From: Pigoraptor vietnamica
Taxonomy: Eukaryota > Opisthokonta > Filasterea
Assembly (NCBI GenBank): GCA_943704525.1
Contig: CALSCQ010001124.1
Location: 1 to 27,620, forward strand
DNA length: 27,620 nt
Direction: 5' to 3'
Both the position numbers and the translations under genes were made by a program. The notes beneath the pieces are model-generated. The model did not search any database. It had not been told where the DNA came from and saw only the letters and a program-made list of their open reading frames with translations. This document shows, piece after piece, positions 1 to 24,000 of this stretch (position 1 is the first letter of the stretch; each line of letters begins with the position of its first letter).

Positions 1-217
1 GTGGGTGGGTGGGTGGGTGGGTAACGCACCTCGTTGTGTGTGCGGGATAGGTATGCTTATCCTAGATGTGTTGTGTGTGCGTCTGCGGGTGTGCAGTGCG
101 GCAAAGGAGAGACGGGCGTGCGTTTCATTACAAGTACGAACTCAAGGTGCGTTCATTCGTTCGTGCGATTATTTTTCCACATAAGATGTATAGTGAACGA
201 ATGCCGCAAAGCCTCTT

Positions 218-301
<84 letters not shown>

Positions 302-398
302 TGTGTGTGTGTGTGTGCGTGCGTGCGCGCGCGCGCGGTGTCTCCCTTGCACTGGCTTTTGTGCCTCTGATATCCATCCTGCGTGGGATCGTTCACAG
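1..398. other. 5' flank or first intron of the WD40 gene, simple-sequence rich
   Basis: No gene is recognised here. The stretch opens with five to six GTGG units (1-21), then unique sequence, then about 18 TTG units (218-271) running into (TG)n and CG-alternating sequence to about 338. It ends at 398 with a credible 3' splice site (TTCACAG) before the first WD40 exon. The start codon and first exon of the WD40 gene are either hidden in 22-215 or upstream of the window; I could not choose between these. Confidence 0.6.
218..338. repeat. (TTG)18 followed by (TG)n microsatellite
   Basis: About 18 perfect TTG units (218-271) run directly into a TG tract with a few A and C interruptions, ending in CG-alternating sequence. 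Apparent poly-Val, poly-Cys or poly-Gln translations are artefacts of this repeat. It lies upstream of the first recognised WD40 exon. Confidence 0.95.
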
Positions 399-1015
399 GG
401 ACACAGTGGCGCCGTGTATGCAGTTCAGTACTCCCCATGCGGTCGCATCCTTGCGTCGGGTTCGTTCGACAAGACGGTCCGCCTGTGGGACACCCTCATG
501 CAGCGCGAGGTGCGTGCGTTGCACTGTGTTGTGTTGTGTTGTGTGAGTCTATGGGGTGTGCGCCTGGGAGGTGAGTGCGCCCATCGTGTGCTTACAAACA
601 CGCCTTACCCCCCCCCCCCCCCCCCCCCCCCCCAGCTCTCGTGTCTCGACATGCACAAGCTCAACGTTTCCGACGTCTCGTGGTCAGCGGAGAGCTCGCT
701 TCTTCTGTCGGGCTCCTATGACCAGACCGTGAAGCTGTGGGACGTGGAGAGTGGCAAGATGACCGCAAGCTTCGATGCGCTCGGATTTGTGCAGGCCGTG
801 TCGTTCAATCCCGCGGGTGGGTGGCGCGTGGGTGGCGCGTGGGTGGCAGCGACGGATGTGTATCTGTACGTGTGTGTGGAATGTGTATATGTTTTTGTAG
901 TTCAGTGTGCGGGTCTGTGCATGCGTGTTTGTGCGCAGATGTCTGTTGTGTGTTTTTGTGTGTGTGTGTGTGTGGGTGTGCGTACGTGTGTGTGCGTGTG
1001 TGTGTGCGCGCGTGC

Positions 1016-1053
<38 letters not shown>

Positions 1054-2965
1054 ACGTGTGCGTGTGTGTGTGTGTGTGCGCGCGCGTGCATGTGTGTGTT
1101 CTGTGTGTGTGTTTGAATCTGACTCCGGTGCATTCACCCCAGACAACAACTCGTTTGTGGCCGGCACCACGCGCAAGCACATCCACGCCTTCGACCGCCG
1201 CGCCGACAAGCCCGTCAAGTCGCTCGAGAACGACGCAATGGTCAACGCACTGTGGGTGTTTCTGTGGTGGTCTTACTACATGCAGATGGTGCGTGTTGTG
1301 TATGTGCGCGTGTGTGTGTGCGTGGGTGTGCGCGTGGGTGTGTACGTATGCAGCGTCTGTGTGTGCGTGTGCGTGTGTGTGTGCGTGTATGCGTGCGTGT
1401 GAGCGAGTGTGTGTGTGTGAGTGCGTGTGCGTGCGCGTGTGCGTTTGTATGTATGTAGCCTCTGTGTGTGCGTGCGCGTGTGCGTTTGTATGTATGTAGC
1501 CTCTGTGTGTGCGTGCGCGTGCGTGGCAAGTGCGGCATCTCACAATGTTGTCATTCTTCCTTCAGTTATGTCTACCGCGATGGCTCGCTGGTTCTCACGG
1601 GCGATTCGCTCGGTGCGCTCAAGACATGGGACTTGCGGACAGGTGCGAGTTCACGAGAAGAGTGCTCCTCCCCCCCCCCCCAACCAACCCCGTCCCCGGA
1701 AACACACACATACACCACCTTTCCTCCCCTCGAAATAGGTTTAGTTCGGGCTTCTATTCATTTTTGTTGCCTCGCAAATTCCCCTACTATCTGCTTTGTT
1801 ACTCGCACTTGCGAGTGCGCTTGAGTCTCCCGTGTGCTTTGTTACTCGCACTTGCGAGCGAACTCGAGTTCTCTGTGTGTGCCTTGTTACTCAAGCGAGT
1901 GGGCGCAGGCGCCTGCATCGACACTGTCCTGAACGAAGAGACGCGCAAGCCCATTTCGCACATTCACGTACCGTCGAGGGGACTCGGTGAGTCTCCCTAT
2001 TCTGTATGCGTGCGCGTGAGGGGACTCGGTGAGCCTCCCTATTCTGTATGCTGGGGACTCGGTGAGCCTCCCTATTCTGTATGCGTGCACGTGAGGGGAC
2101 TCGGTGAGCCTCCCTATTCTGTATGCGTGCACGTGAGGGGACTCGGTGAGCCTCCCTATTCTGTATGCGCGCATGTGAGCGTACATGTATCTGCCTGTGC
2201 TTCTTGCGTGAACAAATAATCGAGTGTCGCCAAGCGCCAAGTCGCTTTACGCTTACTTACACGTCATACACTCAGACGACGAGGAGCGATATCTCGGCGT
2301 CAATAGCTACGACAATGGTGAGATGAGAATACCGCTGCGTATTTCTCGCCTATGTGCGTCGGCGGAGTGCATGTTTTTGCACATTCAAATCCAAGGCGAC
2401 ATGGGCGCGCGTGCCTTCTGTTCGCGCTTGACGTGGGACCCTGGTGGTACGCGTGTCTTTATCCTCACGTCCACCCTTAATTCACATGGTCACATGAGCG
2501 CGTCTGCGTGCATGACTTTTACGTTAACGAGCGCGTTTGGGTGCGTGCGCATCTCCATCCTGACACTCTCAAATTGCCAGTGTTGCGCGTGTACGACCGC
2601 GGTTCGATGCCGCCCAAGACGCCGCTGCGGCTGTTGCACGCGGTGAAGGGGCACAAGAACAAGAACTACCCCATACGGAGCTCGTTCTTCCACGGGTCGC
2701 AGCGTAGGTGTTGCGCGGCCAAGTGGCGCGGAGCCTTGTCTTTATTGAGTGCTCGCTCCGCTGCTCTTTGCTGACACCATGTGCGCATTTGCGTCGTAGA
2801 CATATCTCGCACAGTGCGCACGACGGGCTCCGACGAGGGCATTGGCGCGCAAAAGGGAAAGCCATTCAAGACGGACGCGTCCGAAGAGTGGGTTTGGCAC
2901 ACACGCACGCACACGTGCACTCACACACACACACACACGCACGCACGCACGCACGCATGCACACT

Positions 2966-3000
<35 letters not shown>

Positions 3001-3324
3001 TCACACTCACACACACTCACACACACGTGCGTGTGCGTGCCCTAACACGCCCACATGCCTTGCAGTGGGTCTGAGCGCAGCGTGCACGAAACGGTCCTTC
3101 TTGCGACAGGCAGCGCGGACTGCTTCGCATATGTCTACGACGTCGGTGGCGCGGATGGCTCCGGCGAGCTCGTGCAACGGCTGGAGGGCCACACCGACCG
3201 CGTGTACGGCGCAAGCTTTCACCCGTCGGATCCCATACTGGCCACGTGCTCTGGGGACTCGACAATCCGCATATGGACGGCCAAGACGAAGCGCATTCAG
3301 CCGGGCGCGTTTGAGATGCCGTGA
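399..3324 (+). CDS. WD40-repeat (seven-bladed beta-propeller) protein, 5' partial
   Basis: Nine exons join in frame: 399-509, 636-816, 1143-1251, 1566-1642, 1909-1986, 2276-2317, 2581-2703, 2800-2887, 3066-3324 (TGA), giving 355 visible residues. Seven WD40 blades can be read: [12 protein letters not shown]...[13 protein letters not shown]...VKLWD; a blade ending HIHAFDRR; one ending [10 protein letters not shown]; one ending [13 protein letters not shown]; one with [14 protein letters not shown] and ending YAYVYDVG; and the last, [15 protein letters not shown]...IRIW. The set of blades looks complete, so only a short N-terminal exon is missing. WD40 propellers are protein-interaction scaffolds; nothing here fixes the partner, and I do not assign a known orthologue. 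Between the two strands of blade 6 lies an insertion of about 35 polar residues. The introns hold GT/CA microsatellites and poly-C; one has its 5' splice site tandemly copied (1979-2180). Family confidence is high; exon 4-6 borders are less certain because of the repeated donors. Confidence 0.85.
608..633 (+). repeat. Poly-C run (26) serving as polypyrimidine tract
   Basis: A pure run of 26 C sits directly against the AG (634-635) that ends the WD40 intron 510-635, so it is effectively that intron's polypyrimidine tract. Confidence 0.9.
945..1125. repeat. (GT)n/(GC)n microsatellite in a WD40 intron
   Basis: Interrupted GT dinucleotide repeats with CGCG and CGTACG steps fill most of the intron 817-1142. 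Alternating purine-pyrimidine sequence of this kind can form Z-DNA. Confidence 0.9.
1296..1530. repeat. (GT)n with a tandem unit of about 41 bp in a WD40 intron
   Basis: GT-rich sequence fills the intron 1252-1565. Within it a 41-bp unit containing GTTTGTATGTATGTAGCC occurs twice, starting near 1441 and 1482. Confidence 0.85.
1793..1859. repeat. Direct repeat with short palindrome in a WD40 intron
   Basis: GCTTTGTTACTCGCACTTGC followed by GAG occurs at 1793-1815 and again at 1837-1859. Each copy holds complementary CTCGCA/TGCGAG arms around two bases, so each could fold as a tiny hairpin. Confidence 0.8.
1979..2180 (+). repeat. Five tandem copies of a unit carrying a 5' splice site
   Basis: Units start at 1979, 2021, 2054, 2096 and 2138 (spacing 42, 33, 42, 42). 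Each begins GGGACTCGGTGAG, which is the end of the WD40 exon plus the donor of its intron. The reading frame of the exon stays open through all copies until a stop near 2217, and every spacing is a multiple of three. Confidence 0.92.
2903..3035. repeat. (CA)n microsatellite in a WD40 intron
   Basis: Interrupted CA/CG repeats (ACAC, ACGC) fill the intron 2888-3065. The sense strand here reads CA, opposite to the GT-rich introns earlier in the same gene. Confidence 0.9.
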
Positions 3325-3371
3325 GAATGAATGCAGGGACGTCAAGGAAGAGCTTCGGGCGCGGACATTTG

Positions 3372-3428
<57 letters not shown>

Positions 3429-3685
3429 TGAGTGAGTAGAGGACCTCTCTCAAGTCAGTCTAGCCATGATGAGAGTCGCGTTGCTAGCGCGAGGCTTCCG
3501 AGCAGACTGACGGTTTGGCAACGCATAATTCATTTGGGAGACAAGACAGAAAAGGGAAAACGGCGGCGAATGCGACTAAAATGGCATGCAAATCATAAAA
3601 GCAGAAAAAACGCAAAAGACATTGGCGACGCGAAATGCAAACGCGCACGCGCACGCAAACACACACGTGATTACAGTATAGGAGT
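3325..3685. other. Convergent 3' intergenic region
   Basis: This lies between the stops of the WD40 gene (+) and the giant gene (-). It contains a long pure (GT)n at 3373-3427 and a moderately AT-richer stretch at 3520-3680 that presumably holds both 3' UTRs. I see no canonical AATAAA on either strand and no gene. Confidence 0.6.
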
Positions 3686-4752
3686 TCAAGGACGGCCCAC
3701 AGGTTCCACGACAAGCGGGCGCGTGGCATCGTCCGAGGTCTGCTGTCCCTTCTTGCGCGCCTTCTTCGCTCGCTTTCCGCCGCTCCCGACACGCGAGAGC
3801 TGTATCTCCATCGCCGCGCGCGCAAACTCGTGGCTGCCGACGCCGGGCTTGAGGCCGTGCAGTCCGTTGCGTCCCGTGCGCAGGAGCAGCTGCCCTCGAC
3901 CCACGTGGGGGAGGCTGGACGCCGATCCCGACGAGTGCAACGACTGGACGGCGTGCACGCCCACCGAAGGGCCAGAGCTGGCCGACGCGTCTTCGGGTGC
4001 TGTCGGTTCGTGCGGGCGCTCGGGGCCCTTATCGGCCGCCTCGAGGCAGTCCGGACACGCCGAGGGGCACTTTTCGGCGAGCGAGAGGAAGAAGCGGTGG
4101 CGAGCAAATGTGTCGAAGCCGGCGCTGTCGAGGACGCACGCACGGCCGCACCACGTGATCACGCCTGCGAGAGCGAAGACAAGAGGGGGTCGTTAGGACG
4201 AAGCCCACAAACACAGTAGATGGACTGTCTGTCCACGCGGGTGTGTGTGCGACATAGGGTTAGGGGGTTAGGGTTAAAGTGAGCGCGCTTGTGTGATTGC
4301 ATCTGTGCGCATGCAAGGTGCATGCACTGCGACTGATCTTGAACACGGAGATTCGCACCTTGGGCGTTGGTGAAAAAGAGGAGCGGGACGCCCCGCAGCC
4401 TATAGAGCTCAAGGACCTCGCTCCTTCCCGCGTACCACGCCTGCGTCACGCCGTCCCTCTTGGGCCACTCCCGCGTGACGTCACCAGAGACGGTACCAAG
4501 GTCCGTCTCGTCGATGCACACCATCGTCACGGAAATGCGGCCCGACAGCGCCGAGTCACGTGATGCGGACGCGACGAAGTCGTGCACGAACTGCGCGATG
4601 CGTCGTGAGCTATGGCACCTGCGCGTCGGGAAAGAAAATGGTCAGAAGACATGCAACCGTCGGAAACTACAGAGGCGTCGTCGTCGTCACCCTGAAACCA
4701 AGACAACTTGTCCAATGTGCGTGTGTGTGTGCGTGTGTGTGTGCGTGTGTGT

Positions 4753-4823
<71 letters not shown>

Positions 4824-5713
4824 GGGTTCGGCAGAGGGACTGTTCTATTTGCGCTGCAAGGAGGGATGCACAATCAAAAAGAAAAAAACCCACCACGTGG
4901 TCCAGAACACAAGAAGCCCGGCCTTCCCCTCCACCGTCGACAGCAGGCGAATGCGGGCGCCCGTGGCTACATCCACGACGCGCACATCCGGCGCCTTATT
5001 GTTGTTCATCGCGACGAGGCTGCGGAACTGGCGGTAGTCGTCCTCCATCTCCTCAAGCGTCTTCTTCGGCGGAAGGTCAAACAGCGCCGACTTCGGCCCC
5101 TGCGCCGCGTCCACGCGCGGTCGCATGAGATAGAGGCGATCGCTCGCCTTGAGGCCTTGCCCCATGAGTCGAGAGCCGGGGGTCGGGTGCACGATTGGAG
5201 GGAAGGTGTGCCGAGTGGGCGCAAGGACTGCGTGGCCGTTTGCAACGCCTGCGTGCGAGACACCGGTGCGGATGGAAGCGACGACGGTCGAGTAGTACGG
5301 CGTGGCGCCGAAGACGGGTTCGCCCTCCGGCACGGGGCGCTCGGCGAGTTCGTGCCTCTGCGTGGGGAAGGCAAATCAATTAGAATGCTTGCATACAAAC
5401 AGACTGTGAAGGTGTGCGTGTGGGCTCTTGTACGATGCGTGTGTAGGGCCATGCCACGCGTGGACGTGAAAGCAAGAGAATAATCGCACACAATCGCCGC
5501 GCGAACTCACAAAGCTCTGCCAGTACGAGCAGCACCCGCTGGTGGGCCACCCGGCGTCGCGGCGATGCACGTGACCGAGACAGAAGAAGTTGTACGGGGC
5601 AAAGTCTGCGCCGAAGGCTCCATCAGAGTCTTTGTAGGCCGCGTCATACACATGTCAACCACAGGAAACGCCGCAACAAAATAGTCTTCTCCGTAGGGTG
5701 TGTGAGCAAGTGT

Positions 5714-5751
<38 letters not shown>

Positions 5752-8700
5752 CCCCGGGACACAGACACCATCTGGAAAGAAAACAAATGCCACCCACCGG
5801 TCGTCTCGACTTCCACCGCGTTCGACATCTCGCCAAGGCCCACGGGGTGCCTCGTCGTCGCCGCAATCGATATAATATAGCGGGGGCGGTCCACGCACAG
5901 GCTAATCGTCACCTTGTCCGACGACGCCGGCAGTTCGCGCCCGAAGGCCACCCCGTCCAGAAATACCTGGTACCCGGACACGACCGCGTCCCCGTCGTCG
6001 ACAGCGCGGCGCCAGCGCAGGCCAACGGTCGCGTAGCCCGTGTGCTTCTCCTCAAACTCAACGAGCGCGCGGTTCAGTCGAGACTCCATGTCGATCAAAC
6101 GCGGATATCCCTCGCGCCGCTGTAGGTCCTCGACGAACAATCGCCGCGAGCTTCCCTTGTGCCGCCCGGGGTTCATGGCCTGGACGTCCAGACGGAACAG
6201 CCTTTGCATCAGTCGCTCCCTCTCCGAAAGCATCGTGCATATCTCGCGCTCGGCACGCTCTCGCGCCGCCGTGCTCGCGGGATCGACGACCAGCTCCGGC
6301 GCAGTGGGACGCGTCGGCGGACGTCCGCGGACACAGTTCGAACCGTACCGCGTGCCGTCCGTCGCCACGGCAAAGGCGCGAATGGCGTACTCGTATCCCT
6401 CAATCAAGTAGTGGAACTCGTGCGCTCCATCGCCCGGCCGCGCGTGCGCCGTCTGCGCCAAGTCCGTGCCGCCGTCGTCGTCCTGGTCGAGGCGCACGCA
6501 CGTGATCTCGTAACCGGACACGACGCGTCCCTCGGGCAGAATGGGCTCAAAGTATTCGACGCGAATCGAAGACGTCTGCGTGGACGACACGCGCCGGACG
6601 TGCGGCGCGGGACCGCGCGGGCACGCGACCTCGAGTGGGTCCGAGGGAAGGCCATCGCCGACGGGATGGCCGTTCGTGAGGGCGGCGACGGTGAACGTGT
6701 AGCTCCGCCCGGGGCGGCAGTTGGCCCAGTCGTACGTCGTCACTTCGGGCGTCTGGGACGTGTGCACGACCTCGTCGTCCACGCACACAGTATATCCCGA
6801 GACAAAGGCGCGCCCGAATTCGGCCGGTCGATTCCACTGCAGGGTAATCTTGTCCGGACCCGCATACGGCGCAGACAGCACTGGACACGCGGGCCTGGCG
6901 GCAGTCTGAACCACGAGCTGCCGCGATCGCAGCACCTCGCCCTTCCCGCCCGCGGGGTACGCAGACACGACTACAAAGTGAGACCGTCCGGGCGTGCAGC
7001 GGGCAATTTGGAACGAGCGGTGCTTGCCGTTGACCGTCGCCGTCTTCACCGCCGGCGCAACCGTCGAGCTCCATTCGACCTCGTAATGGTCCAAGACCCA
7101 GCCGGGCGGCGCATGCGGGCGCGCCCACGTGATCGCCAGCGTCTCCCCGTCGCACCACGCCTCGCGAATCTCGAGCGACGGCTCGGTTCCGGGTGTCGTG
7201 AGCCGGAGAGGCGCGGAGAGGGGTCCCTGTCCCTTCTGTGGCATGCCCTCGCAGCGCACCTCCACGCACACGGCGTAGTCCGTGAGGGGATCGGCCGCAA
7301 AGTCGGCCTCGCGAGTGCGCGCGGGAACGCCGTCAACAACGAGGCGTCCGTTCACGTGCACACGGAACCCGCTCACTGCGGGCCCCCCAAACTCGACGGG
7401 ATCCGTCCACGCGATACCAATGCGTTCGCCCGTGGCAAAGCGGTACGACACTTCGACGGGATCGGGAAGGGACGGCGCGCGCATGCGTGCGGGCGCAGAG
7501 TCAATCTTCCCGTCTCGGTCCAGGACGGCCCACACAGTGACAACGTAAAACGCGCGCGGAACGAGCCCGTTGAACGTGTGCTCGTGGAGGTCGGCGGGCA
7601 CCTCCGCCTCTCCCGACAAACCCGTGGCCATGTCTGCGGACGACGCGCGCGGCGACCGTCCTGACGACCGCAAACGCGCGTTGACGTCGGGGCTTTCGGA
7701 GGGTGTCGGGCGGTTGCTGTCCGGGCCCTCCTCTCGCCGGCAGGTGACGTGGTACGCGCGCACGGGGGCGGTACCCAGCGGCGTAAGCGGCGTCCACGTA
7801 ACGGTCAGGGCGCCAATGCCCGCACCCTGCGCACGCACGGAGAGCACGTCCATAGGAAGTGTCTCGACGGAGAGGGGCTCCGAAACCGAAGAGTCCGCGA
7901 GGCCGTTCGACACCACCGCGGTGACGGTGAGAGAGTACGTGTTGCGCGCGCGAAGTCCCGTCACCACGCACGTGGTCTGCGCAGGCTTGATGTTGCCGCC
8001 AAACTGGTGGCCGTTCACTTCCACCCTGCAGTAGCTCACGCGCGCGTCGCCAAATTCCGCGGGCTTCGTCCACTCGATTGCCGCGGCGGTCGCAGAGACC
8101 CACAGCAGCGAGAGCTCGGGACGCCGAGGGGGCGCGGGCACTTGGAACGACACGCAAGGCGAGACGACCGTGAGTTCCGGAAGATCCTTTCCGTTCGTAT
8201 CGGAAAACATGGCCGTGACGCGCGCGTAAAAGTGGGCGCCCGGTTCCAGCCCCTTCAGAACGCACTGGCGCTCTGTTCCTTCGAGTCCCCTCTTCTCAAT
8301 CAACGGAGGCGCGTACTGCACGGCCGCTTCCTCGCCCTCAAACGCCGATAACTGTCCCGTCCACACGCACAGGTCATACTGACGCACAATGGCCGCGCCC
8401 ACCGGCTTGGCGGCGGTCCACGCCATGGTCGCCGTGCCGCTGCGCAAGTTGAGCGCCTGAATGTCCGGGCGTATGCTGCCGAGCGTCGTCCCCTTCACTT
8501 CCATCGACGGCTGGCCACGCGGGGCGCGGGAGACGGCATCGGGTACGGCAACGACGCGGAGGCGAACTTCCGTGCACGGGCGCAGGCCCTCAACAGTGTA
8601 CGTCGTCGTGGAAGCGGGGACTGTGGCCACCATGTCGCCATTGGCGAAGACCTCGAAGGAGTGGGCCGTGGCGCGGTCGCCCGAAGGGGGCGCCGGTGTC

Positions 8701-11700
8701 CAGGCGAAGACGACTGACGTGGGTGTGCACGACTCAACCATCACGCTGGGAGGGAGGGGCGCAAGGAGGGCCTCTGCGCGTTGTGAGGGCAAAAGTGAGG
8801 GGATTGTCACATGCACTGCGGACGCCAAGGAACTCTTTGGTGACCCAACCACGGATGACAGGATAGGAACAAGGGTGCAGGTGTATGCACGCACAGACGT
8901 GTGCCGCACTGTCGCACACGTGCGTGCACGACGATAGTGCGACGCCCATCAAAACAGGCAATTGCGAGGGCATGCGACAACTAATTGCGACTGAAAGCAG
9001 CGACAGCCACCAAAACAGGCATTGGGGAGGGCATGCGACAACTAATTGCGATTGATAAGCAACACTCACCGCACGATTCAAACGTCAGCGACACGGGCGG
9101 CACAAATGCGTCCCCCTTGTCCGTCAGCACCTTCACGTGGACGGCGTACTCGGCGCCAGGCTCAAGGCCCTCCAGGCGAATTTCCCGCGCATCCGCGGCA
9201 AGCGACTGCTTTCCCGCCGCGCCCTCGCCACCGTTTGCCGGTCCCCACGACACCGCGTATCCTTGCAGCGTCGCGCGACGGCCCAGCCTTGGGTGCGTAA
9301 TGGAGAAGCGGGCATCGTGGCGGCCCACGTGCGAAGGGGTCACCGACGCGCCGGTGGGCCCTGCCGCTTCAAACCCGCACGGGTTCGACACCGCCGGCGC
9401 GCGCTGGTAGTCGCTTAGCGCGGCAACCGTGACGGTGTGCGGGCCGACCGAAAGCGCATCCACGTCAATCACGTGAGCGCGATGGCCCGGCTTCACTTCG
9501 CGGCCGCTGTTGAGACCAACCAAGCCGGCGTCCCCGCCAGTTACTGGGGCGACGACCACGCCGTCCACGGACACTTGGTAGCCAGTAACGCGCGCGATTC
9601 CATAAGCAGTCACCTCGTTCCATGTCACCACGCAATAGCCGTCGCTGCCCACTGACGCCGTCGCGCGCGGGGGGTCCGGACCGTCCGGGCACACCGCGTC
9701 CACCTCGGCCGAGCGACGCGAGTCGCAAAACACCTCGTCGTCCTTCTGTGCGAGCGCCATAACCGCAAAGAGATAGCGCGAGCGGGGCACGAGGTTCTCC
9801 ACCATAACCACAGACGCGCCCCCATCGCCCTTCGCGGACGCCGTCCCGTTGACAAACACCTCAAAGCCGCCCACGCGCGGCGGCGCTCCGTCGGACGACG
9901 GCGGACTGTTTGCTCGCTCGAAGTGCACGGCAGCCGTAGTCCCCAAGGCCCACGTGACCCGCACTTGGCCCGGCGTGCCCAGGCGCACAGGGTCCGGCTT
10001 GGGCGGCGGCGGGGGTACGTCCGGGACCACGACAGCGGCTGGCTCCGGCTCTGGCTCCGGCACGGGTTCGGGTTCGGGCTCAGGCTCACGCACAGGCTCG
10101 GGCTCAGGCTCCACAGCAGGCGGTGGCGGCGGCGGCGGCGGCGGTGGGGACGGCGCACGTGGCGCGGGTTGGACCGGTTTCTCCACGACGACGGGGGGCG
10201 CTTCGGGCACAACAACGGGCGGTGGAGGGGACGGTGCACGTGGCGCTGGTGGGGGTGGGGCCGGTTCCTCCACGACAACAGGTGGGGCGGGTTCAGCAGG
10301 AGACGCTTCGGGGACCACGGCGGGCGGGGGCGATGGCGCACGCGGGTGTGTCGGCGGCAGCGGCGGCTCTTCCTTGACCGGTTCCGGTGTGGGCTCACGC
10401 GGAGGGGGAGGGGAAGGGGGCGCCACGACGGGCTCAGGCTCAGGCTCGGGCTCAGGCTCAGGCTCAGGCTCGGGCTCAGGCTCGGGCTCAGGCTCGGGCT
10501 GAGGCTCAGGCTCAACGGAGGGCTCAGGTTGCACCAAAGGGGCGGGCTCGGGTTCGGGCGCCTTCGGAGAGGGCGTGGGCTCCGGCTCCGGCTCGGGCTC
10601 GGGCGCTTTGGGCGGTTCCGGCTCTGGCTCAGGCTCAGGCTCAGGCTCCTTCGGTGGTTCAGGCTCAGGCTCTGGCGCGGCGACTGGATCCGGCTCCGGG
10701 TCGGGCTCGGGCTCGGGCTGCTTGGGAGGCTCTGGCTCAGGCATGGGGGGAGGGGCAACCACGGGCTCTGGTTCGGGCTCCGGGGCGGGAGGAAGGGGGT
10801 CCGGTAGTTCCGCGATGGCGCTTTCGATGGCCCACTCGCAGAGTTCCGAGCCAGCGAGAGCATCGACAACCTTGTCGCACGCACGCGAGACGATCGAGTC
10901 GATTTGCGCCTCCCTTTCCTCCTCGGCGTCGACCATCTCGGCAGCCGCAGCGTGGAGAGCGTCGTCCAGCATCTCGTCCACCACAGTCCCTTCGACGTCA
11001 CGCACTGCGGAAGCCACGAGTGAGTCTGTGCGCTCCTGCTCCTGTTCCCATAGGGACAGCGCCTCGTCGAGGATCGAAGCGAGCGCGACGTCCACCGCGC
11101 GCACCGAGGCCTCTTCGCACATGGCGTCCGTGAGGCGCTCCCTCTCCGCCTCGCTCTTCGCCGCCTCCTCCAGTGCAGCCATTCGCTCCAAGTGCGCATC
11201 GATGGCGTCGGCGATAAAGCCGTCGCACACAGCGTCAATCGCCGTGTCCACTGCGGCCGAAGCGAGCTCCTCCGTCTTCACCGCGACAACGTCAATTTCC
11301 GGCGGAACGTCGACGACGAGGGCTGCGGATGGCGTGCCGTGTCCATACACGGGAAGAAGCGCGTACTTGAGTTGAACGTGCACCTTCGTGCCAGGCTTGA
11401 GAGGCGCGAGCACCGCCGACGTGTCGTCGAGCGAGGTGTAACAATGCGGCGCGCCGTCGACCACCACTTCCACAGCAGACATCCACGCAGCGCGCGAAGA
11501 GTGCGACGGGAGGTCCGCCGGCCAGTCCCACTCGATCGTGGCGCGTGTTGGTGCCACCTCACGCAAGCGCGGCGTCGGCGCGGAGGGGACGGGCGACTCC
11601 AAGCGCGTGACGCGCAAGAGGCCGCTCGTGAAAGTCGAGGAGAACCCGCGCGTTTCGGCGAATGCAATGGCACGGATGGTGTGTGTGCCCTCCGTCAGGC

Positions 11701-14660
11701 GAAACTCTTCTCCTGGCTTGCACGTGTGCGTGGAGGTCCCAGGCATACCGACCGACGCGACGGTCGGAAGGGACCCGTCGACTGTGTAGAGGATGGTGAC
11801 GTCGGTCTCGGGCGTGGAGAAGACAAACGGGGTAATAGGGTACGCCGTCCCTTCCCGAAGTGGCGAAAGCGACGGCACAGCCGGGTTCACAACTGCCAAA
11901 AGAGGGAATGTCGGGTCAACGACTGTCTCATCGAGGCTCACTCCCCCAGTGCACGCATACCTAAACAGTCTACTCGCCCACGTGGACGTGCCGTTCTACT
12001 TACCGCACAGTCACACACAGTCAACGCACCTTTCTCGGCAACGGTGAGCGTGAAGTGGCGGCCGACGGCACCGGCGGACACGGCTGTATACGTCCCCGCC
12101 TTGCTAAAGACGTTGAGAAACTCCCCCTTTGGAGTTGGTTGGCCGCTCTTGAACCCTCGACGCACGCGCTTGGGCTCCCCGTTCGGTCCCATTGTCACCT
12201 GCGCGGATGTTTGGGGGGGGGGGGGGGGGGGGGGGGGGGGAGGGCTGAACATGAGCGATCTGCAGGAAACGAAAACTGCGATGTCGCACACACGCGCGAT
12301 GCATATTCAAAAAAGACGCAACAGAACTTCGGGTCGCGTGCGCAGGCCCGCCAAGTCGTCTGCGACCCCCTTGTGGCACGTGCGCAACCAGAGCTGCGCA
12401 ACAACAACACACACACGGCATCGCACACCTGTATGATATTCTGCGGCTGAGACGGGTCATCCCATCGGAAAAGCACTCCGCGCCCCTTCCCGATCGTAAG
12501 CGCCTGCGGCCGGAACCCCTTCTCCGCCGACACGTGCACGCACTCGGGCGGCTGACGGGGGTCCACCAAAATCGTCGCCACGCCCACCGATTCGGAGACG
12601 CCCATGTCGCGAAAGTGGTACACGCCGGGCTTGTCAAACGTCACCGCGTACGCCCCGCCAACCATGGGCGGGCCAGACTTGAACGCGCCGCTTTCCGTCG
12701 CACGTCCGGACGCCGCGTCAATGGTCACCGCGTGGACGGCGTGCGGCGCCTTCGATTCGATCCAGTCAAACCACACCTGGTCGCCCACAGTGGCCGAGGT
12801 GAGGCGTGGGGACGGTGCAGCGCCGTCTGCGAGCACAACGCGAATGTCCTTCGCGCGCGGCACCACGGCCACGCAGCCAAACTTTCCAGAGCCGGAAGCC
12901 TGGTTCTCGTAGTAATAAATGCCCGGCTCGTCAAACTGCCGGCAGAACGCGCCCGAGCCGTCCTGCCCCGGGCCAGACGAGAAGCAGCGGTCGGGCTCGG
13001 CGCCGATTTGCACAATGTTGTTGCGCACGCCCTTGACGGAGCGGGAGCGCGACGATCCCGCGCTGTGCCCACGACCGGAGGCCTGATCCCCTTCACCCTC
13101 GGGAAAAGACGCGTGCGACTGAACGCCGTCCGGAGACAGCGGACTCATCGGCAGTGCCTGCGATGCCAATAGGCTTGCGTCCGTGTCGAGGGAGCTGTCG
13201 CGCCCAGTCCACGAAAACCACACGCGGTCCCCGCAAGACACGACGAGCCGCTTGGGCGTGAACCCCGACTCTGCGACGCGCACTTCCTTCTCCTTCGGCC
13301 GCGTCTTCACGAGAATGACGACGCCGTGCTTCCCCTTGGATGTCTCCGACGAAACCCTGTAGGCGCCGGGGACATGGAAGGTCGCGCAGAACGAACCGCC
13401 CTGCCTCAACGCCCACCCGCTGTGGAACGAACCGTCGTCCTTCGAGTCGAGAAGAGGAGAGTGCGCGCCCACGGGTACGCCGTACACGGCTTCTCCGTGG
13501 TCGCAATCGAACCACAGGCGGTCCCCCTGGAGCACAGACACGCTCGCGTGCGAGAACGAGCCGTCCGTGTCGACATACACAGTCTCGTCCGCCGGCCGCG
13601 GCCGCACGACCACCGTCGAAAAGTGTCCGGAGTAGCCGGGACTTGAAAAGTAGTACACCCCGGGCGTCTCAAAGGCATGAACAAAGGCGCCCGTCTTCCC
13701 GCTCACGGGATGGCTGGTGATGCCGCCGTGCTTCAGCGGAACGCTGTTCGAGGCATCCAGGCCGAGCGAGCGCGTCTCAACCACAGTGTGCATCTTGTCG
13801 CTGTTGGACCACGTCCACCGCACCGAGTCGCCGACGCGAATGGACGCCGTCTGGGGTTCGAATCCGTCCGCGGTCAACCGCACGCGCGTCTGCTTCGACC
13901 GGGCGCGCACAATCACCGCAAGGACGGTCCCCTCCTTAAGCTCGTCAAGCGCACCCAGCGAGTCCTTCGCCAACTCTTCGGCGGTCACGGCGCAGAACGA
14001 ATAGCTTCCCACTGTCCGAAATGCGTGTTCGTAGCGAATGTCGACCTTGGGGGTCGGAGGGGCGAAGATGCCGCCGGTACGCACAGGATGCACAATCGCG
14101 TGCCCACTCTTGTACGAGAACGTCACCGGCACAAGCGTGCGCGCGGCGGTCGATTCTTCCTCCGAGTGCCATGCAACGCTGCTCCCTTCCCATATGACGA
14201 GGTGCTCGTACTGGAACGTGCCGTCCGACCGAATCGCGACGGGCTCGGGGGCCTTAGCACGCACCGTCACGCTGCAATACGCACCGGGCGGCGAGCCCTC
14301 GCTCGAGAACCGGAAGTTGCCGCGCGTCTGAAAGACGTGCAAAAACACGCCCGTGGTCGTTGGGCCCCGCTGGAAACCCGTGGGACCCCCCTTCACGGGG
14401 CGCATCTCCTTATCCGCGACATAGATCTCGCGCACAAACTGCGGCCGCTTACAGTCCTTCCAAGTAAACTCGATGAGGTCCCCCTCTTCGATCGACAGCT
14501 GCGGCGGCGTAAATCCATCGTCGGTGACGGTCACGAGGAACGGGAGCACCTCCTTCTTCCCACGACCCGACAGATCGCCCTTCGACGGCACCTGGTAGAG
14601 GTCATTCTGCGACGTCAGCAGCGCGGGTGGGGGTCCGCGCGAGGACGCCACTTGCGCCAT
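3686..14660 (-). CDS. Giant cupredoxin-like / Fn3 / thioredoxin-like multidomain protein
   Basis: Eight exons, read from high to low: 14660-12429, 12198-12030, 11940-9070, 8773-5798, 5629-5511, 5357-4894, 4618-4359, 4164-3686; 9,570 nt, about 3,189 residues. Order of parts: seven cupredoxin-like beta-sandwich repeats (about 41-134, 138-252, 256-352, 358-450, 456-600, 603-699, 706-800), each with a GD-x-(V/L)-x-F/W-x-W strand and a PG-x-Y turn; a chitobiase/hexosaminidase C-terminal-type (Fn3-associated) domain with [11 protein letters not shown] (about 812-910); one Fn3; an acidic helical region (about 1025-1180); a Glu-Pro tract (about 1183-1445); some 12 more Fn3 domains to about 2749, the last with a helical insert; a linker; then a thioredoxin-like domain with FWTTWCHSS and cis-Pro GVP (P3022), and a basic tail. 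No signal peptide or membrane segment is seen, so it is probably cytosolic or axonemal. Function unknown; the copper sites look mostly lost. The start is the first ATG of exon 1. The weakest joins are the acceptors at 11941 and 5630. Confidence 0.85.
4255..4276. repeat. Short telomere-like (TTAGGG) stretch inside an intron
   Basis: The + strand reads TAGGGT-TAGGGGG-TTAGGG-TTA within the intron 4358-4165 of the giant gene. Only about three imperfect units are present, so it is an interstitial motif and not a chromosome end. Confidence 0.7.
4717..4822. repeat. (GT)n microsatellite in a giant-gene intron
   Basis: A nearly pure GT tract on the + strand (CA in the sense direction) occupies much of the intron 4893-4619 that splits the thioredoxin-like active-site Trp codon. 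Confidence 0.95.
5715..5748. repeat. Poly-C run (34), poly-G in the sense strand of an intron
   Basis: Thirty-four C on the + strand lie in the giant gene's intron 5797-5630, whose transcript therefore contains a run of 34 G. This is the longest homopolymer in the window. Confidence 0.95.
8946..9057. repeat. Tandem duplication of about 61 bp in a giant-gene intron
   Basis: A unit with CCATCAAAACAGGCA and GGGCATGCGACAACTAATTG occurs near 8946-8995 and again at 9007-9057 with a few differences. It sits just inside the 5' end (sense direction) of the intron 9069-8774. Confidence 0.9.
10013..10793 (-). repeat. Glu-Pro-rich low-complexity coding tract
   Basis: Within exon 3 of the giant gene a degenerate hexanucleotide repeat encodes alternating Glu-Pro runs with Pro-rich and Lys/Asp interruptions, about 260 residues. 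It separates the first Fn3 and helical region from the main Fn3 array and probably forms a stiff extended linker. Such tracts vary in length between alleles. Confidence 0.9.
12213..12240. repeat. Poly-G run (28), poly-C in the sense strand of an intron
   Basis: Twenty-eight G on the + strand become 28 C in the giant-gene transcript, 14 nt before the acceptor at 12199 of the intron 12428-12199. In this orientation it can serve as the polypyrimidine tract. Confidence 0.95.
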
Positions 14661-15300: not shown

Positions 15301-17785
15301 ATGCCCCGCCTCCCAGTGGCGCGGGCGCCGCGTCTGCTGAAGGGCATCCCTCTCCACTTGCGTGGCGAGGGAGCGCAGCCGCGACCCAAGGTCCTCGTGA
15401 TTGCGGGACCGACGGCGGCAGGGAAGAGCGACATTGCGATGGTGTTGGCGCAGCGGCTGGGTGGAGAAATTGTGTCGGCGGATTGCGTGCAGGTCTACCG
15501 TGGTCTGGAAGTGGGAACAAGCAAGCCGTCCCCGTTTGAGAGGTGCGAGTGCCTGCGGATTCTGAGGCTACGTCTGTACCACTGCGCGCGCGTGTTGTGG
15601 TGCAGAGAGAGCGCTATCTCCGTCGGTAGCGGTGCTTTCAAGCGTGTGTGCATCTGTGGTTGTGGCACACTGCTGCTGTAATACCTCTTATGCTCACATG
15701 TCTGTCGTGCAGGCGTCTCGTGCGTCACCATCTCGTTGATATTCTGAATTGGAACGAACACTTTTCTGCGGGGATGTTCAAGAAATACGCGACAGAGGCC
15801 ATCGAGGTGATTGCTTAAGGAGCACACCCGGCACACACACGTGCGCTCTCCACACTCGCATGTTCACATCGGGCCTGCTTTCGGCTTTGTGTGTGTAACC
15901 CTGTCCCTTCGTTTGCCTTACTTACTTGGGCCTCTGCGCAGGACATACTGTCCCGCAACAAGCTCCCCATAATCGTCGGTGGCACCGCCTTCTATCACCG
16001 ATTTCTGCTTCGGGACTTCCACGAAATTCCGAGCGATCCCGCCATCCGCGCACGCATCGCGCTCGAGGTGCAGAAGGACTCGTGCTGGGAAGAGAGGTGT
16101 GTGACGGTGTCCCAACTATGATTTGTTGAGAAGCTCATTGTCCTTTGGAGAAAAGTATCCTTTGCTCCATGGTAGCGATGGTGTTGCGTGTGAATGGCAT
16201 GTGTGGCTCTCGTTCGGGATTGCTGTCTCTTCTCCCTCCTCTTTCCGCCACTCGCCCTCACACTTTGCCTGTTGTTTTGGCGTGGTCAGTTTGGAACGTC
16301 TGCGCAAGATCGATCCCGTGCGAGCGTCGCGGATATCGCCCAACGACATGCACCGCCTCGTGCGTGCGCTGGAAATATGCGAGATTGTGGGCGGTCCCGT
16401 GCCGCAATTGCCCAGTCCCGCGGAGACGAGTGGGTCAATGTCTGTTGCGCCTCATGTGTTGCTGCTAGCATACGTATGTCGAGTATGGCAGCTCCTTATT
16501 CACTGCTTACCCTTCTCTTTCGACTCTCTCAACTGCGCTAATTGCTAGAATCGCCGCACTCCGCCCTTTTTCAGGTCCCAAGTACGACTTTCGCACGGTG
16601 TTTGTGACCCCACCGACGCGGGCTCTGCTTGTGCTGGGAATTGAGAGGCGCTGCGAGGCGATGATCGAAGACGGCCTGGTCGAGGTGGGTTCGTGGGACA
16701 GAAGAAAGGGGGGGGGGGGGGGGGGACATCGATTCTGATAGTGAATTAGGAGGATCTAAATAGATCACTGGAGGTGTGTGTGTGTGTGTGTGTGTCAATT
16801 CTTTAAAGCTCTGCCTTCGTGCGCACGTTTTTTGACGACGCCCACTGCAGGAAGTCGTCCAGTTGATGTCAAAGGGATTTGGCATAGTGGACAGCGCAAG
16901 CCGTGCTATTGGGTACGCACAGGCGCTCGATTACGTGCGCGACTACTGGCTGAATGATGAGGACGCTATCGAACACTCGGTGCGTGGAAGTTCTATGGTC
17001 GTTGCTGTGCATGTGCGCGTGTGCGTGTGTGCGTGTGTGCGCGTGTGCTTGGGTGCGTGGGTGGTGACCCTTTTTCGTCCGTTGTGCAGGTGCGCCCCGA
17101 CGTCACACGCAAGCGGTTTCTGCAGTTTTTGGAGGCTTTCATGAGCAAAACAAGGTTTGATTTGCGCCCTTGTGCCTCTTCGTGGGCGTCTCTCTTCCTT
17201 CTTTCGTCTTCCCTTTTGTCGTATGCCGTGTTAGTGTTCCTTGGCCTGTGTTGCACCAGACTCTTGTGACAAGTGTCTCGCCGCCATTTTTTTTTTGAGT
17301 GCCCGTTTTTGTACGCAGATCGCTCGCCGCCGCGCAATACACGTGGTTCCGGAATGAGCCCTCGTTTTACGCAGCCTCTGTGAGCGGATATACTGGCAAC
17401 AGCCCCGGCACTATACCCGGCCGGCTCTCGCGGCAGGCGAAGCTCAGCGTGGTGCGCGAGATTATCCCGCTCCTAAGGGGCGACAGGTGCGTGCTTTAAG
17501 ATTTTTGGGTGCGATGGGTGTGCTGTTTTGCTGATGTTTGCCCTTCGCAGGACTGCCTTCGAGCGTCGATTGTTGGCAAATAAGCCCAAAAAGGATGCTC
17601 TTCTTGCGCGTCTCACGACCAAGAAGAAGGATCGGCCGCCGCAACACGAGTTGATATACACCACCGTTCCCGCCATTTTGCGACGACGCGTCGAGAGCAT
17701 CGGGCTGGCAGTGGCCAAGTTTTTGACTCCCTCGATAACAAGGAGGCTGCGGTCGGAGGAGCCGCGCGACAGTTGGGAGCGGTGA
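15301..17785 (+). CDS. tRNA dimethylallyltransferase (MiaA/TRIT1 family)
   Basis: It transfers a dimethylallyl group from DMAPP to N6 of A37 in tRNAs that read U-starting codons. Nine exons join in frame: 15301-15542, 15713-15806, 15942-16096, 16290-16429, 16575-16684, 16851-16979, 17090-17154, 17319-17486, 17551-17785 (TGA), 445 residues. Family motifs appear in order: P-loop GPTAAGKS (36-43), [55 protein letters not shown] then [22 protein letters not shown] and [12 protein letters not shown]. The usual D-S-x-Q is D-C-x-Q here. The C-terminal tail is basic and shows no Cys2His2 zinc finger such as many eukaryotic forms carry. Residues 1-30 are rich in Arg with one acidic residue, which would suit a mitochondrial presequence. 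The exon 4 end (16429) is the least certain join; it was chosen for phase. Enzyme identity is very secure. Confidence 0.95.
16708..16725 (+). repeat. Poly-G run (18) in a transferase intron
   Basis: Eighteen G lie 23 nt after the donor of the intron 16685-16850. The same intron also has a short (GT)n at about 16773-16795. Confidence 0.9.
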
Positions 17786-18092: not shown

Positions 18093-21000
18093 ATGTCGAA
18101 GAAGGAGAAGCCCCCCAAGGGCGACAAGGTCACCGCCCGCGCGTCGACAGTCGCGCTGCCCAGCCGCGATTCCGAGCTGTTTGACATTCCGGCAAACGCA
18201 ACAGCCCTTGCGAACGTGGGTTTTGTTTTGGAACGTGCGCGTGTGCGGTGTATGAAGTCAACACGCATGTCGGTGGACGTGTAAGCAGTGTATGTCTGGT
18301 GTGTTCATATTCGCCGCGTGTGCGTTGCAGGAGGACTGGAATGGCTTTGTGTTTGTCGTGGAGAGCGATATCGTTGACGATGGCAAGGACGCCGAGCTGC
18401 TCGCAGCCGCCATTCAGAGCGGCTGCCGGCAGCGCTTCCAAGTTCTCAGTAAGGAGTCGATTGCGGGAGTGGTGAGTTGCTACGACTCAGTTTGTATCGC
18501 CGTGCGATGTGCAATTGCTTCAAGGCAAAGAGACGGACAATTATGGGAACGGCGGGTGTTGAGAGTGTGTGCACTGAAGTTAATCCTTCATCGGCTCTCG
18601 GGTGGATCGATGTCGAAATGGCGCAAATCGATTCGTTTCCACTTTGTGTGACCTTGTCCTTCTCTCATTGCGCCGCAGGTCAAGGAGACGAAGGGCAGCG
18701 ACTTGAGCGCCACGTTGCGGCAGCACTTGGAAGCTGGCACCGAAATCCCCACCGAGATGTACGCGCGGCTGCTCCGTGCGCGCCTCCTCCAGCTGAAGAG
18801 CGAGGCTAACGAGAAGAGGGCTGCTATGCAGAAGGTGTGGAGTCATCCCATGCACACTCGCTGTCGACACGATGCCGTTTGAGTAGATCGTCAACTGAGA
18901 ATGCTTATTAGGTGTCGCATCGTCGTTCGGTGTGCCCGTGTATTTGTACTTTTGTCTCTCCTCACTCGCAATTGAAACGTGCAGAACGACGCGGGTGCCA
19001 GTGGCGACAATGCGGCAGAGCGCGGCAAGAAGGGCAAGCCGAGCGCCAAAGTGGGGTCGTCGAAAAAGAGACCCGAGACGGGCAAGCCGGTGGAAGAGGT
19101 GCGTGGAGCGTAACAAACCAGCGACCTTTTGGGGACTGCTTACATCGGCGTGGTGCGCTGGGGTTGTGTGTGCAAGCACCTATGGGATACGCACGCCGCG
19201 CACGTGTTTCTTGTGTGGCCCGCCCTTTGGTGATGCCGTCGCTGTATGGCACAGGTGCCTGAGGTGCCACCGGCGGACAAGGACGCCGGCAAGAAGAAGC
19301 TCAAGCTCAAGAAGCCGACGACCAAGGCGCAGGAAGTCTCCAAGACCATAGGTGAGGGTTGCATGCATGCACCGTGCACACATGCGAAATGACGCACAAG
19401 GGAAGGTACGCGAGCGTTGACGAAGGCATGGCCGTGCTCACGTATCGAATTTTTCACACACAGATGACGAGCCCAAGGACGGTCCGGACACGTACTACCT
19501 TGTCCAGGGGTTCTCGTCTGCGCAGGGCCTTGCGACGGCGCTTGAAATGGGTGTGGCCATCGACGCAATCGTCCGCATTGCGCACGTGACCGACGAGGCG
19601 GGTGCGCCTCCGAACCCGTTCTGGCCCGAGTTCTCGCGCCTCGTGGAAGCGTCGCCTGTGACGTCCGGTTTGCGCGACGTCGTTCTGCTCTCCGCGAACG
19701 CCCCTCCGCCGGAGCCCGCGCAGCCGAAGAAGGACAACAAGGACTCGATTGGGCTCGCGCTGTTCGCCGAGATTGCCGCGTCCATCTACGGTCTCGTCGA
19801 CAAGAAGCGCGAGCACGCGACGTATGTCGAAAAGCTGCGGGTCGTCGACGTCCCAGAGGCTCACGGCAACGCGGACATGTCGCTGTACAGGCGGCTTGTA
19901 GACCGCGTGCCGGACAGCGCCGTCGGCGTGGGCTTCCTTCTCGATTGCATGCTGGAGCAAGTGGCGTACACGGCGCGTGCGGCCTCGCCCGACCCCGCCA
20001 ATTCGCTCGCGAGGCACGGCCACTCTGAGTCGGTCACAAACTCCATCAATTACGGGTCGAGCATGGCGAATGGCGCGTGGCTCGTGGGCGAGGGTGACGG
20101 GGGGAGGGACATCGCCGACGCATTTTCGAACTATTGCGACGAATGGGGCACTCTGATAGTGCAACAGCTTCCCGGGGACACAGAGCGCGCGGTGGCCGCC
20201 ATTGCCGCTGCCGCTGCCGCTGCTGCCGCGGCCGCCAACAACGCAAATGTCGATGCTTCGGCCGCTTGTGCGAACGGTGCGAGCGCGGCGCCTGTGGACG
20301 GCCAGTCCCAACCGCAGGCACCTTCCTCCAACGATCCAACACCCATGTCTACTGCCCCGCCTGCTGTTGCACCCCCTGTGACGTCGGATGCGCCCACGCC
20401 CACACCGGCAGCCGCTCCCCCCGCCCCTCCGCCGCCGGTCTTCCCTGGTGCGTCACTGCCCCCGCCCCCTCCCGAAGTGGCCACGGTCCGCCGTTGGGAC
20501 GCCATCGCCCGCCGTCTAGTGGGCTTGGACGAGAACGTCGCGAAGATTGTCGAGCGCGCCGAGCGTCGCATGCTCGCGTTTATGCCCTCGGCCGACACTG
20601 CGCGGCAGTTTCTTCCCATGTACCGCTCGGCGTCGAGCACGGACGTTGGACCGCGGGAACGCGCGATGGCGAAGCGGGAGTTTCAGTCGATGTGCGGCGG
20701 ACTGGCGCCATCGGAATCGGAAGCCGGTCTGTTGCAGCTTGCGATTGATCGCCTGTTGGCGGACGGACCACTTGTCCCGGCACACTGCGTGGGAGAAGAG
20801 CGCCGGGGCATCGAACGCTTTGACCGCGCGGGCTTTCAGCAGGTGCTTGTGGAGGCCGCGATGACACACCCGAAGGCGGCTGCAAGGTGCGTGTGCGTGC
20901 GTGTGTGCGTGCGTTGGTTCGCGTGCACGCGCTTAGTGCTGCCTCCAGCGCACCTCTTTTGTAGCGTACGGGTACCAGTCGAATTTTTCGTTCTTATTTC

Positions 21001-24000
21001 TCGCTGTTCTGGAATGTACATGTTATGGCCACTGAATTGCAAAACGACTCACTTGTCATCCAGGTATGATGCCGACGCGGACGTCCTTGTGCTTGCGCTG
21101 CACGCGGGCTTTGGGGACGATCCCTCGCGCACACTGCGTGAGCACACGGAGGCGAGCCTGGCCACCCGTGTCGGCTTTCGGTAAGAATGATCTTCTATAG
21201 TATGCCACTTTGTGCGTGTTGTGTGTGCAGGATAAGATGGCTATCTCTCGTCATCGCCATACGTCCACTTACGTTGCCTCTTCGCAGTAATTTTCTTCAG
21301 CACATCCACGGCACAGAGTGGAACTCCCCCGGCTGCGTCGGCTACGACATCGGCGACGCCGTCGTTCGCCTCGACGACGAGTCCTCCCGCGTGTACGTCC
21401 CGGACGGGACCGTCATCGCCTCAACGCGCCAGCAATTTCCCTGGGATTCACGGCCCGTCGTGCGCACGTCCCTCGCTTCCGACGGTCACGTGGTGTCGCT
21501 GCACTCGAACTGCGCCGGCGCGCCCATGCCTCTTGTGCGCCCGAACGGCAGCGCAGCTGGGCGCAAGGACAAGGGCGCGGTGGCCACCGCCTCACTCGTC
21601 GACGGTGCCGTTCTCTCGCTGTCCGCGGACGGGACGGCCTTTTTCACGACGCCCGATGGCGTGACGGTGGACCTGTCGTGTCCTTCGCTCGTCCGCCTCA
21701 CGCCGGCGCGTCGCGTGCGCAGCGCCAAAGAGGAGCTGACGCCTGCGTGCAAGCAAGAGGTGATGAGGACGCTGCTGCAGGACGGGACGACCAGCCGCCA
21801 CTTTGCGGATGGCACGCTCGAGATCCTTCTTCCGGACGGTGCGATGTGCGTGCGTGGCGAGGACGGCGTGTGGATGACGACGCTTTCCGACGGGCGTAAG
21901 GAGCGGCGCTCAGCCGACGGCGTCCTTCGCGAGATGCTTCCCCGTCTGAACTGCAGCTGGTCTCGGGATTACCACACGGGCGATACGGTGCAGGCGCGCG
22001 ACGACGGCGTCATCATGGTGACCCGAAAGTGCGGATCGGTCGTCGTGCAACACGCCGACGGCACACGCATCACCCGCTTTGGACAGGACTCGGCGCAGGT
22101 CCCTGGCAGCATTCGTGTCGAGTGCGAAGGGTACCCGTCGGTGACGTTTGACCCTCCCGACCCGGCCACAGAAGAGGCACGGCGCACGTTCGCCCTGGAT
22201 TCCGCGGCTCCGTCGCGTGCCACGGAGAGCCCCGTCTTTGCGTCCCCCCAACCCACCATCGCCGCGCAGCCGCAGCCGCCGCAATCGCCAATGGTGAGAC
22301 CCGTGGAATCGGTTGTGGCTGCTCCGTCGCCGCCTCCGAAGCCGGGCTCTGCGAGCGCGTCGGGAAGCCTCAAACCCAGCGGTATTCTCAAGAGCTCGGC
22401 GAATGTCGCCGGCAATAACAGTGCGTCGATGGCAACTACGCCCGTCCCGCAGCCCGCCCTCTCGCCTGTCCAGGCGTCGCGGCCACCCTCAACGGACCCA
22501 TCGACCGCCGCGTCAACTGCGAACCTCGCCGGCAAGGGCATTTCGCCCATTCCTGAGCGGTCGGCGGTCATCCCTATGCCTGAGATTGCGCCGGTGCCGC
22601 GATCGGTCGTCTGCGCCAACGGCACGCGCATCGAATCGGACGTCCTCCTCGGCCGCTTGGTGCTCTCGAACACGGCCGGCCTCGTGCTTGCGTACGACCG
22701 CGCGTTTGGCGAACTGCAGTTTTTGCCGCAGTTGCCACCCGGCGGGGACGTTGCGTTGCAGGGCCCACGCGTGTTTCCGGAGAACGGCGAGGCGTCCGTC
22801 GGCGTCTACCGCTTCTCTCTGGCGGATGGTTCTGTGCGCTGCCTGAGCGAAGATGGCCGTCTGTACGCCGTCTCGCCCGACGGCGTCGTCAGCGTCGCCT
22901 GCGCGAGTGAGGGAGAGGGGACCAACTCTGCCGGTTCAGTCGTGTCTCTGCCTCCTGGCCGTGTGGACCCGCATGCGCCGCGTGTGTTTGTCGTGCACCA
23001 CGACGGCAGCGCGTTTGAGCTACTTCGCGCGACCGATGTCTCTCGCTTTGTGACTGCGGCGGCAACGGAACCGAGCACGGTCGTTCTGCGGGAGCGGTTC
23101 GAGGGAGACATCTCGACAGACGCCATCAACGCACTCTTGGGCGTGGAGGAGACGATCACCGTGCTGAGTGTTCCGGAAATTCTCAGGCCGCAGTACTATG
23201 CGGACAGTGCAATTGTGCCCGTTGGCTTCACCTCGACCGCCCGCCGTGCGTACGCAAGGTTCGAAGCGCTTCCAGTGCCAAAGTCGATCGAGGTCACGCA
23301 AATTGCACTGCGACGGACCGTGACCCCCGACCGGCTCTCCCAGATTGCGGCGTGTGTGGAGCGATACCGCGCGCTCGTCGAGGAGAGGGAGAGGGAGAAG
23401 GAGCGTGAGAGGGAAAGAGAGCGCGAGAGAGAGCGCGAGCAGGCCGCTGCTGCCGCCGCTGCGGGCGACGCCGCGGTAAATCCGGACGCACCCGCTACCT
23501 CTTCCGAGCCCGCGCCGCCCCAAACGCCTCAGCCTGCCGAGGGCACCCCCAATCTGCGTGCACGCGACTCGGTCGTTAACATGCGCAACATTCGCCGTCG
23601 CTTTTCCGTCTCTTCCGCTGCGCCGCCCCCGCCCGACACCCTCGACGCCGGCGTCCAGTACATGGAGGAACTGGAGCGCCGCCGTGCCGCACGCGCGCTT
23701 GCGGAGGCACTTGAGCGCGAGCCTGGCGTGTCGGAGCGCATCAAGAACAACTGGCGTAGCCGCGCCCTCCCGCTGGGCTACGCGGCACGTGAGCGCCGGT
23801 GCTCTCATCCACCCCTCATATCGCCTGCCTCCATTGGCCTGCGCGATCCTATTCCGCCGTACTTTGCGAGCGAGGAAGGGCGCGCGTGGATTGAGGGACG
23901 CAGCGACCCCGTCCCGGAGGCCGCGTGCGAACACTCGCAGCCTTGCGATGGCGATGCGCGCGACTGCGATGCGACCGAGGCGTGCGCTGTGGTAACAGAG

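Follow-up and report, generated by a model that had tools for sequence, protein, structure and literature searches.

The window analysed here is the entire contig C451 of the filasterean Pigoraptor vietnamica (CALSCQ010001124.1, 27,620 nucleotides), in a genome of 32.5 Mb across 1,395 contigs. Its minus strand carries a giant predicted gene of eight exons between positions 14660 and 3686. The predicted product joins seven cupredoxin-fold repeats, a chitobiase C-terminal-type (CHB) domain, 13 fibronectin type III (Fn3) domains, an acidic helical region with a Pro/Glu-rich linker set among them, and a thioredoxin-like C-terminus. The architecture is unusual, and we would group it with the giant modular scaffolds built from beta sandwiches.

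Exon structure of the giant gene

The exons lie at 14660-12429, 12198-12030, 11892-9070, 8773-5798, 5629 (or 5605)-5511, 5357-4894, 4618-4359 and 4164-3686. Once joined, they show GT-AG ends and consistent phase throughout and form a single reading frame of 3,173 residues, which bears out the eight-exon model of an earlier first-pass annotation and corrects its length of 3,189 residues. The open frame of exon 1 starts at 14702 behind a stop, 42 bases ahead of the ATG at 14660. By codon log-odds, six of the eight exons clearly favour the annotated frame over the other two (0.166 to 0.295); in exon 2 it again ranks first, at a slightly negative value (-0.06).

Of the seven introns, six have a GCAG acceptor, the exception being that of exon 5 at 5630. 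Moving the start of exon 5 to 5605, after GGCGCAG, keeps the frame, gives a protein of 3,165 residues and raises the synonymous codon score of the exon from 0.187 to 0.315; judged by these features, 5605 would be the better acceptor. All eight exons likely form one transcript. A gene break at 12429-12198, which the first-pass annotation had named as possible, is unlikely because intron 1 cuts through cupredoxin repeat 7.

Domain composition of the predicted protein

The seven cupredoxin-fold repeats occupy residues 36-802 (11888..14555, minus strand, as for all features of this gene), with starts at 14555, 14252, 13898, 13595, 13295, 12854 and 12545; the last one spans exons 1 and 2 into the start of exon 3. 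Borders of these repeats and of the Fn3 domains were set by eye. Scored with a profile built from the remaining six, each repeat reaches 20.7-61.6 bits, a value attained by none of the 885-998 shuffles scored per repeat (999 made). Together with PDB profile matches and an AlphaFold2 (AF2) model of repeat 3 examined with Foldseek and VIA-align, this establishes the repeats as real.

They share the fold of type 1 (blue) copper proteins. Unlike plastocyanin and Cupredoxin_1, they stand in tandem and have lost the Cys, second His and Met ligands in all seven copies: in the one alignment made, equivalents of Cys84, His87 and Met92 are kept in none of them, and that of His37 in two (repeats 3 and 6). 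As aligned, the repeats thus lack the His-Cys-His-Met copper ligand set. Cupredoxin folds devoid of a blue-copper site also occur in peptidyl-arginine deiminase, an intracellular eukaryotic enzyme that has two such domains at its N-terminus and no Fn3 array. The giant protein would resemble those N-terminal domains in this respect, and differs from the enzyme in its seven repeats and its Fn3 array.

A CHB_HEX_C_1/Fn3_assoc domain lies at 11633..11833 (Pfam E 1.4e-6, 28.6 bits against a cut-off of 22) and was found at the same place in a genome-wide family search. The first Fn3 domain, F1 (residues 901-997, 11303..11593), stands ahead of the linker; it scores 16.3 bits in the leave-one-out test and has no stretch of its own in the Pfam scan. 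Domains F2-F13 (residues 1433-2733, 5799..9997) are split by the intron 9069-8774. Pfam fn3 covers seven stretches in exon 4 (E 1.2e-54, 182.9 bits against a cut-off of 25) and one in exon 3 (E 1.5e-12). The leave-one-out profiles confirm all 13 domains, at 14.1-66.5 bits with F12 and F1 weakest, and no shuffle reaches the real score (457-497 scored of 499 made per domain). F13 was profiled after removal of a charged 79-residue insert near its start (residues 2575-2653, 6039..6275), helical by eye only. Two further sandwich models, Pur_ac_phosph_N and Ig_RIMBP2, pass their Pfam cut-offs on the same Fn3 stretches; the latter (28.6 bits against 27) lies over the first Fn3 domain of exon 4, a stretch better covered by fn3. 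Searched against PDB sequences, exon 4 matches titin best (E 1.5e-20).

Between F1 and F2 lie the two segments that the first pass had called helical and Glu-Pro-rich. The acidic region (residues 998-1168, 10790..11302, net charge -34) is modelled as helices by AF2 from the single sequence, with a mean predicted local distance difference test score of 68.1 and a predicted template modelling score of 0.43, too uncertain a model to support comparison of folds. A 38-residue periodicity in it is no more than suggestive and is not claimed: 11 of 5,000 shuffles reached it at period 38 or 76, but 432 of 5,000 did so when any period was allowed. The linker (residues 1164-1432, 9998..10804) has 269 residues, 47.6% of them proline and 21.2% glutamate, with 52 EP pairs. 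Its P, E, V and K together make up 81.4%, which in composition only is that of a spring segment of titin-like proteins.

The C-terminus probably carries a ResA/TlpA-like thioredoxin domain (residues 2890-3017, 4157..5009, exons 6-8), as suggested by PDB and NCBIfam sequence matches. Its best PDB chain is 3kcm (E 4.4e-4), with similarity over 128 residues; FWTTWCHSSRR of the giant protein aligns opposite FWATWCPPCRE, and a GVP stretch, the cis-proline place of thioredoxins, is retained. As in ResA/TlpA-like thiol-disulfide oxidoreductases, the attacking cysteine is present. Unlike them, the protein has CHSS for the CxxC active site and is fused to a giant scaffold. Serine stands at the second, resolving position of the motif; therefore the attacking cysteine is kept and the resolving one gone. 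Directly behind this domain, a CxxxCxxC cluster (residues 3047-3054, 4046..4069) is a possible metal site. Because the copper ligands are gone and CHSS replaces CxxC, neither end of the protein appears to be an ordinary redox centre, which weakens the earlier notion of a redox-tipped molecule.

No signal peptide or transmembrane (TM) helix was seen in the giant protein: hydropathy over 19 residues peaks at 1.32, and the N-terminus is polar. Upstream, at 15301-14661, there are seven ATG frames, the longest of 30 residues, and none is signal-like by eye. We infer that the protein is not secreted and resides in the cytoplasm, in line with the first pass, which had described a probably non-secreted single protein with this order of domains.

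A proposed titin-like scaffold and its alternatives

Titin is a non-secreted protein in which a P/E/V/K-rich spring lies between beta-sandwich arrays and Fn3 is the main module. Like titin and twitchin, the giant protein has sandwich arrays flanking a P/E/V/K-rich segment, appears non-secreted and uses Fn3 as its main module; with 13 copies, it has the long Ig/Fn3 array of such proteins. Unlike titin, it contains cupredoxin sandwiches, a CHB domain and a thioredoxin-like end. It also differs from titin in showing no kinase among Pfam rows at E <= 1 (exons 1, 3, 4 and the C-terminus; residues 745-801 left out). The Pfam scan gave no Ig domain apart from Ig_RIMBP2, a model that barely passes its cut-off where an Fn3 domain lies.

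We tentatively favour a modular scaffold that is single-copy, is not secreted, acts in the manner of titin and uses its thioredoxin-like end for binding or anchoring. One rod would consist of the seven copper-less cupredoxin sandwiches, the CHB domain and one Fn3 sandwich, the other of the twelve Fn3 sandwiches at the far end; the acidic helix and the 269-residue Pro/Glu spring, the latter presumably elastic, would join them. The thioredoxin-like end may bind a partner, or anchor to it as a mixed disulfide through its attacking cysteine, with no redox turnover. At about 4 nm per beta sandwich, 21 sandwiches would by arithmetic measure about 80 nm, to which spring and helix could add tens of nanometres, and the protein could tether two structures tens of nanometres apart. 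A more specific version appears improbable: an independently evolved titin-like elastic protein of a flagellated protist, with a cupredoxin rod, a PEVK-like spring and a redox-sensitive or covalent CxxS anchor, possibly spanning axoneme repeats. If the protein is indeed one intracellular chain, the titin-style design of sandwich rods and a P/E spring would exist outside muscle, in a protist; the scaffold would be built in part from plastocyanin-type domains stripped of copper; and it would be a candidate structural ruler or tether open to tagging.

Exon phase, domain matches, the lost copper ligands, linker composition, the titin match of exon 4, the lack of any strongly hydrophobic segment and the finding of no second genomic copy argue for the scaffold. 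Several points weigh against it. Word-limited searches found no orthologue that would show a conserved arrangement. The Fn3 family is large, so the titin match tells little about ancestry, and EP-rich stretches can be stiff, not elastic. At the C-terminus, the NCBIfam ResA match (E 4.2e-5, 23.5 bits) falls far under the family cut-off of 170 and the Pfam thioredoxin match (E 0.014) is also under its cut-off. Finally, exon 5 has a total codon score of -0.213 in the annotated frame, slightly below the -0.165 of another frame.

The same protein could be a lineage-specific axonemal or basal-body component, a tether or ruler of the flagellate, which we consider rather unlikely. This idea was suggested by SPAG17/PF6, a central-pair projection protein whose gene lies at about 18093-25259 on the plus strand (ends by eye), some 3.4 kb from the giant gene and on the opposite strand. 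Its identity is confirmed by a match of the big-exon frame 21142-24735 to the solved SPAG17 chain 9ijj (E 1e-15), and a Tcp10_C match falls just under its cut-off. Between the two sits, as the earlier count of one intervening gene implied, a tRNA isopentenyltransferase gene (about 15301-17785, plus strand, ends by eye; IPT and IPPT over the Pfam cut-off), divergent from the giant gene at about 640 bases. A giant non-secreted scaffold would suit an axonemal place, and thioredoxin-like axonemal subunits exist, namely LC3 and LC5 of the outer arm, as stated in PMC10266980.

Set against this, gene neighbourhood carries little meaning in eukaryotes, and another gene intervenes: the arrangement tells no more than that at least one central-pair gene is present in the organism. 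The likeness to SPAG17 consists of this proximity only, and PDB searches, in which SPAG17 is included, showed no sequence relation between the two proteins. The PDB sequence matches listed for the giant protein (in one case the best 60 of 100) include no axonemal chain, an absence that does not rule out a relation. The terms "cupredoxin" and "fibronectin" are absent from the main text of PMC10266980, and the open-licence PubMed Central literature yielded nothing pairing cupredoxin with axoneme, with flagellar proteome or with cilia and fibronectin, nor combining cupredoxin with fibronectin type III, thioredoxin and "flagell-". The axonemal ruler of the first pass is left unsupported.

The locus could instead hold two genes, which we judge unlikely: one for a cupredoxin-Fn3 scaffold that stops within or behind exon 4, the other for a small thioredoxin-like protein that begins at the in-frame ATG 5165 of exon 6. 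The stretch 5010..5629, comprising exon 5 and the start of exon 6 ahead of the thioredoxin fold, is the least certain of the gene model, and the weak joint of a single transcript is at 5798-5357. Exon 5 is short and has a negative total codon score, as noted, and CTACAAAG, its first acceptor, differs from the other six; over the initial 190 bases of exon 6, ahead of the ATG, codon score does not decide between two frames (0.223 annotated against 0.262). On the other hand, phase fits on both sides of exon 5, and synonymous codon choice taken alone ranks the annotated frame best. Among 260 open noncoding frames of equal length, overlapping windows from stretches picked by the analyst, one reaches its synonymous score of 0.187 and none its third-position GC of 0.77. 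Reading beyond exon 4 adds 47 odd residues over a glycine run, with a stop at 5655. Of the break that the first pass had allowed for at 5798-5629, the negative total codon score speaks in favour, and phase and synonymous score against.

We equally doubt that the protein belongs to a known, conserved family beyond the reach of our protein searches. No relatives were found for the full length and region 1-990 (E <= 0.001; 7,983 candidates scored), region 2580-3050 (E <= 1; 7,599) or exon 1 (E <= 10; 7,993), in searches that require shared exact 5-residue words, were run without a control search using a known protein and, in two of three cases, scored only the candidates sharing most words. Fast-evolving scaffolds are readily missed in this way; such an absence is weak evidence, and orphan status is therefore not established. 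Pfam, NCBIfam and PDB yield matches to single modules and none to the whole order, which agrees with the first pass, to which no named family joining these parts was known.

A surface or secreted adhesin, with a missed signal exon or unconventional export, is the least probable reading. In its favour, cupredoxin, CHB_HEX_C_1 and Fn3 are modules typically seen in secreted proteins, the 3,173 residues include 51 cysteines, and a similar cupredoxin domain occurs once in each of two giant receptor-like frames of the genome. Yet the N-terminus is not hydrophobic, no TM helix was seen and the 640 bases that separate the giant gene from its divergent neighbour hold no signal-like ATG frame.

Genomic matches and neighbouring genes

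No second copy of the giant gene was found in the genome by searches with exon 1, the helical region, exon 4 and the C-terminus. The last three returned self-matches only; exon 1 returned itself and three weak matches (E 4.9e-4 to 8.4e-3), one of them on C1335. The other two were rejected as paralogues: they sit in open frames of 4,334 and 4,749 residues (C351:10963-23964 and C1136:14656-28902, both on the minus strand; loci L013-L018) with IPT/G8-like repeats, alike and PKHD1L1/fibrocystin-like by eye. Also by eye, these frames show IPT-like repeats, G8/beta-helix-like parts, one TM helix and an SH3-like tail. Each includes a single plastocyanin-like domain that resembles repeat 3 in the exon 1 search and, by eye, likewise lacks the copper cysteine. 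A Cupredoxin_1 family search of the genome was a false negative, returning nothing, not even the giant gene. A second CHB_HEX_C_1 domain (C639:2080-2253, plus strand, L032, 49.8 bits) lies in a short open frame of 171 residues, in which inspection by eye showed neither Fn3 nor cupredoxin. On C1238, an "open frame" of 3,149 residues was discarded, being mostly N.

Within the window, no RNA family reached its cut-off. Runs of G or C of 18-34 bases occur at 608-633, 5715-5748, 12213-12240 and 16708-16725, all intronic by our reading, along with long TG repeats; the lengths of the four runs may carry assembly errors. Two further genes lie on the plus strand. UcrQ, subunit 8 of complex III, is encoded by two exons at 26472-27006 (Pfam E 1.1e-24). 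A WD40 gene has exons at 402-509 and 3064-3324, both over the Pfam WD40 cut-off, with THOC3-type propellers as the next best match, under the cut-off.

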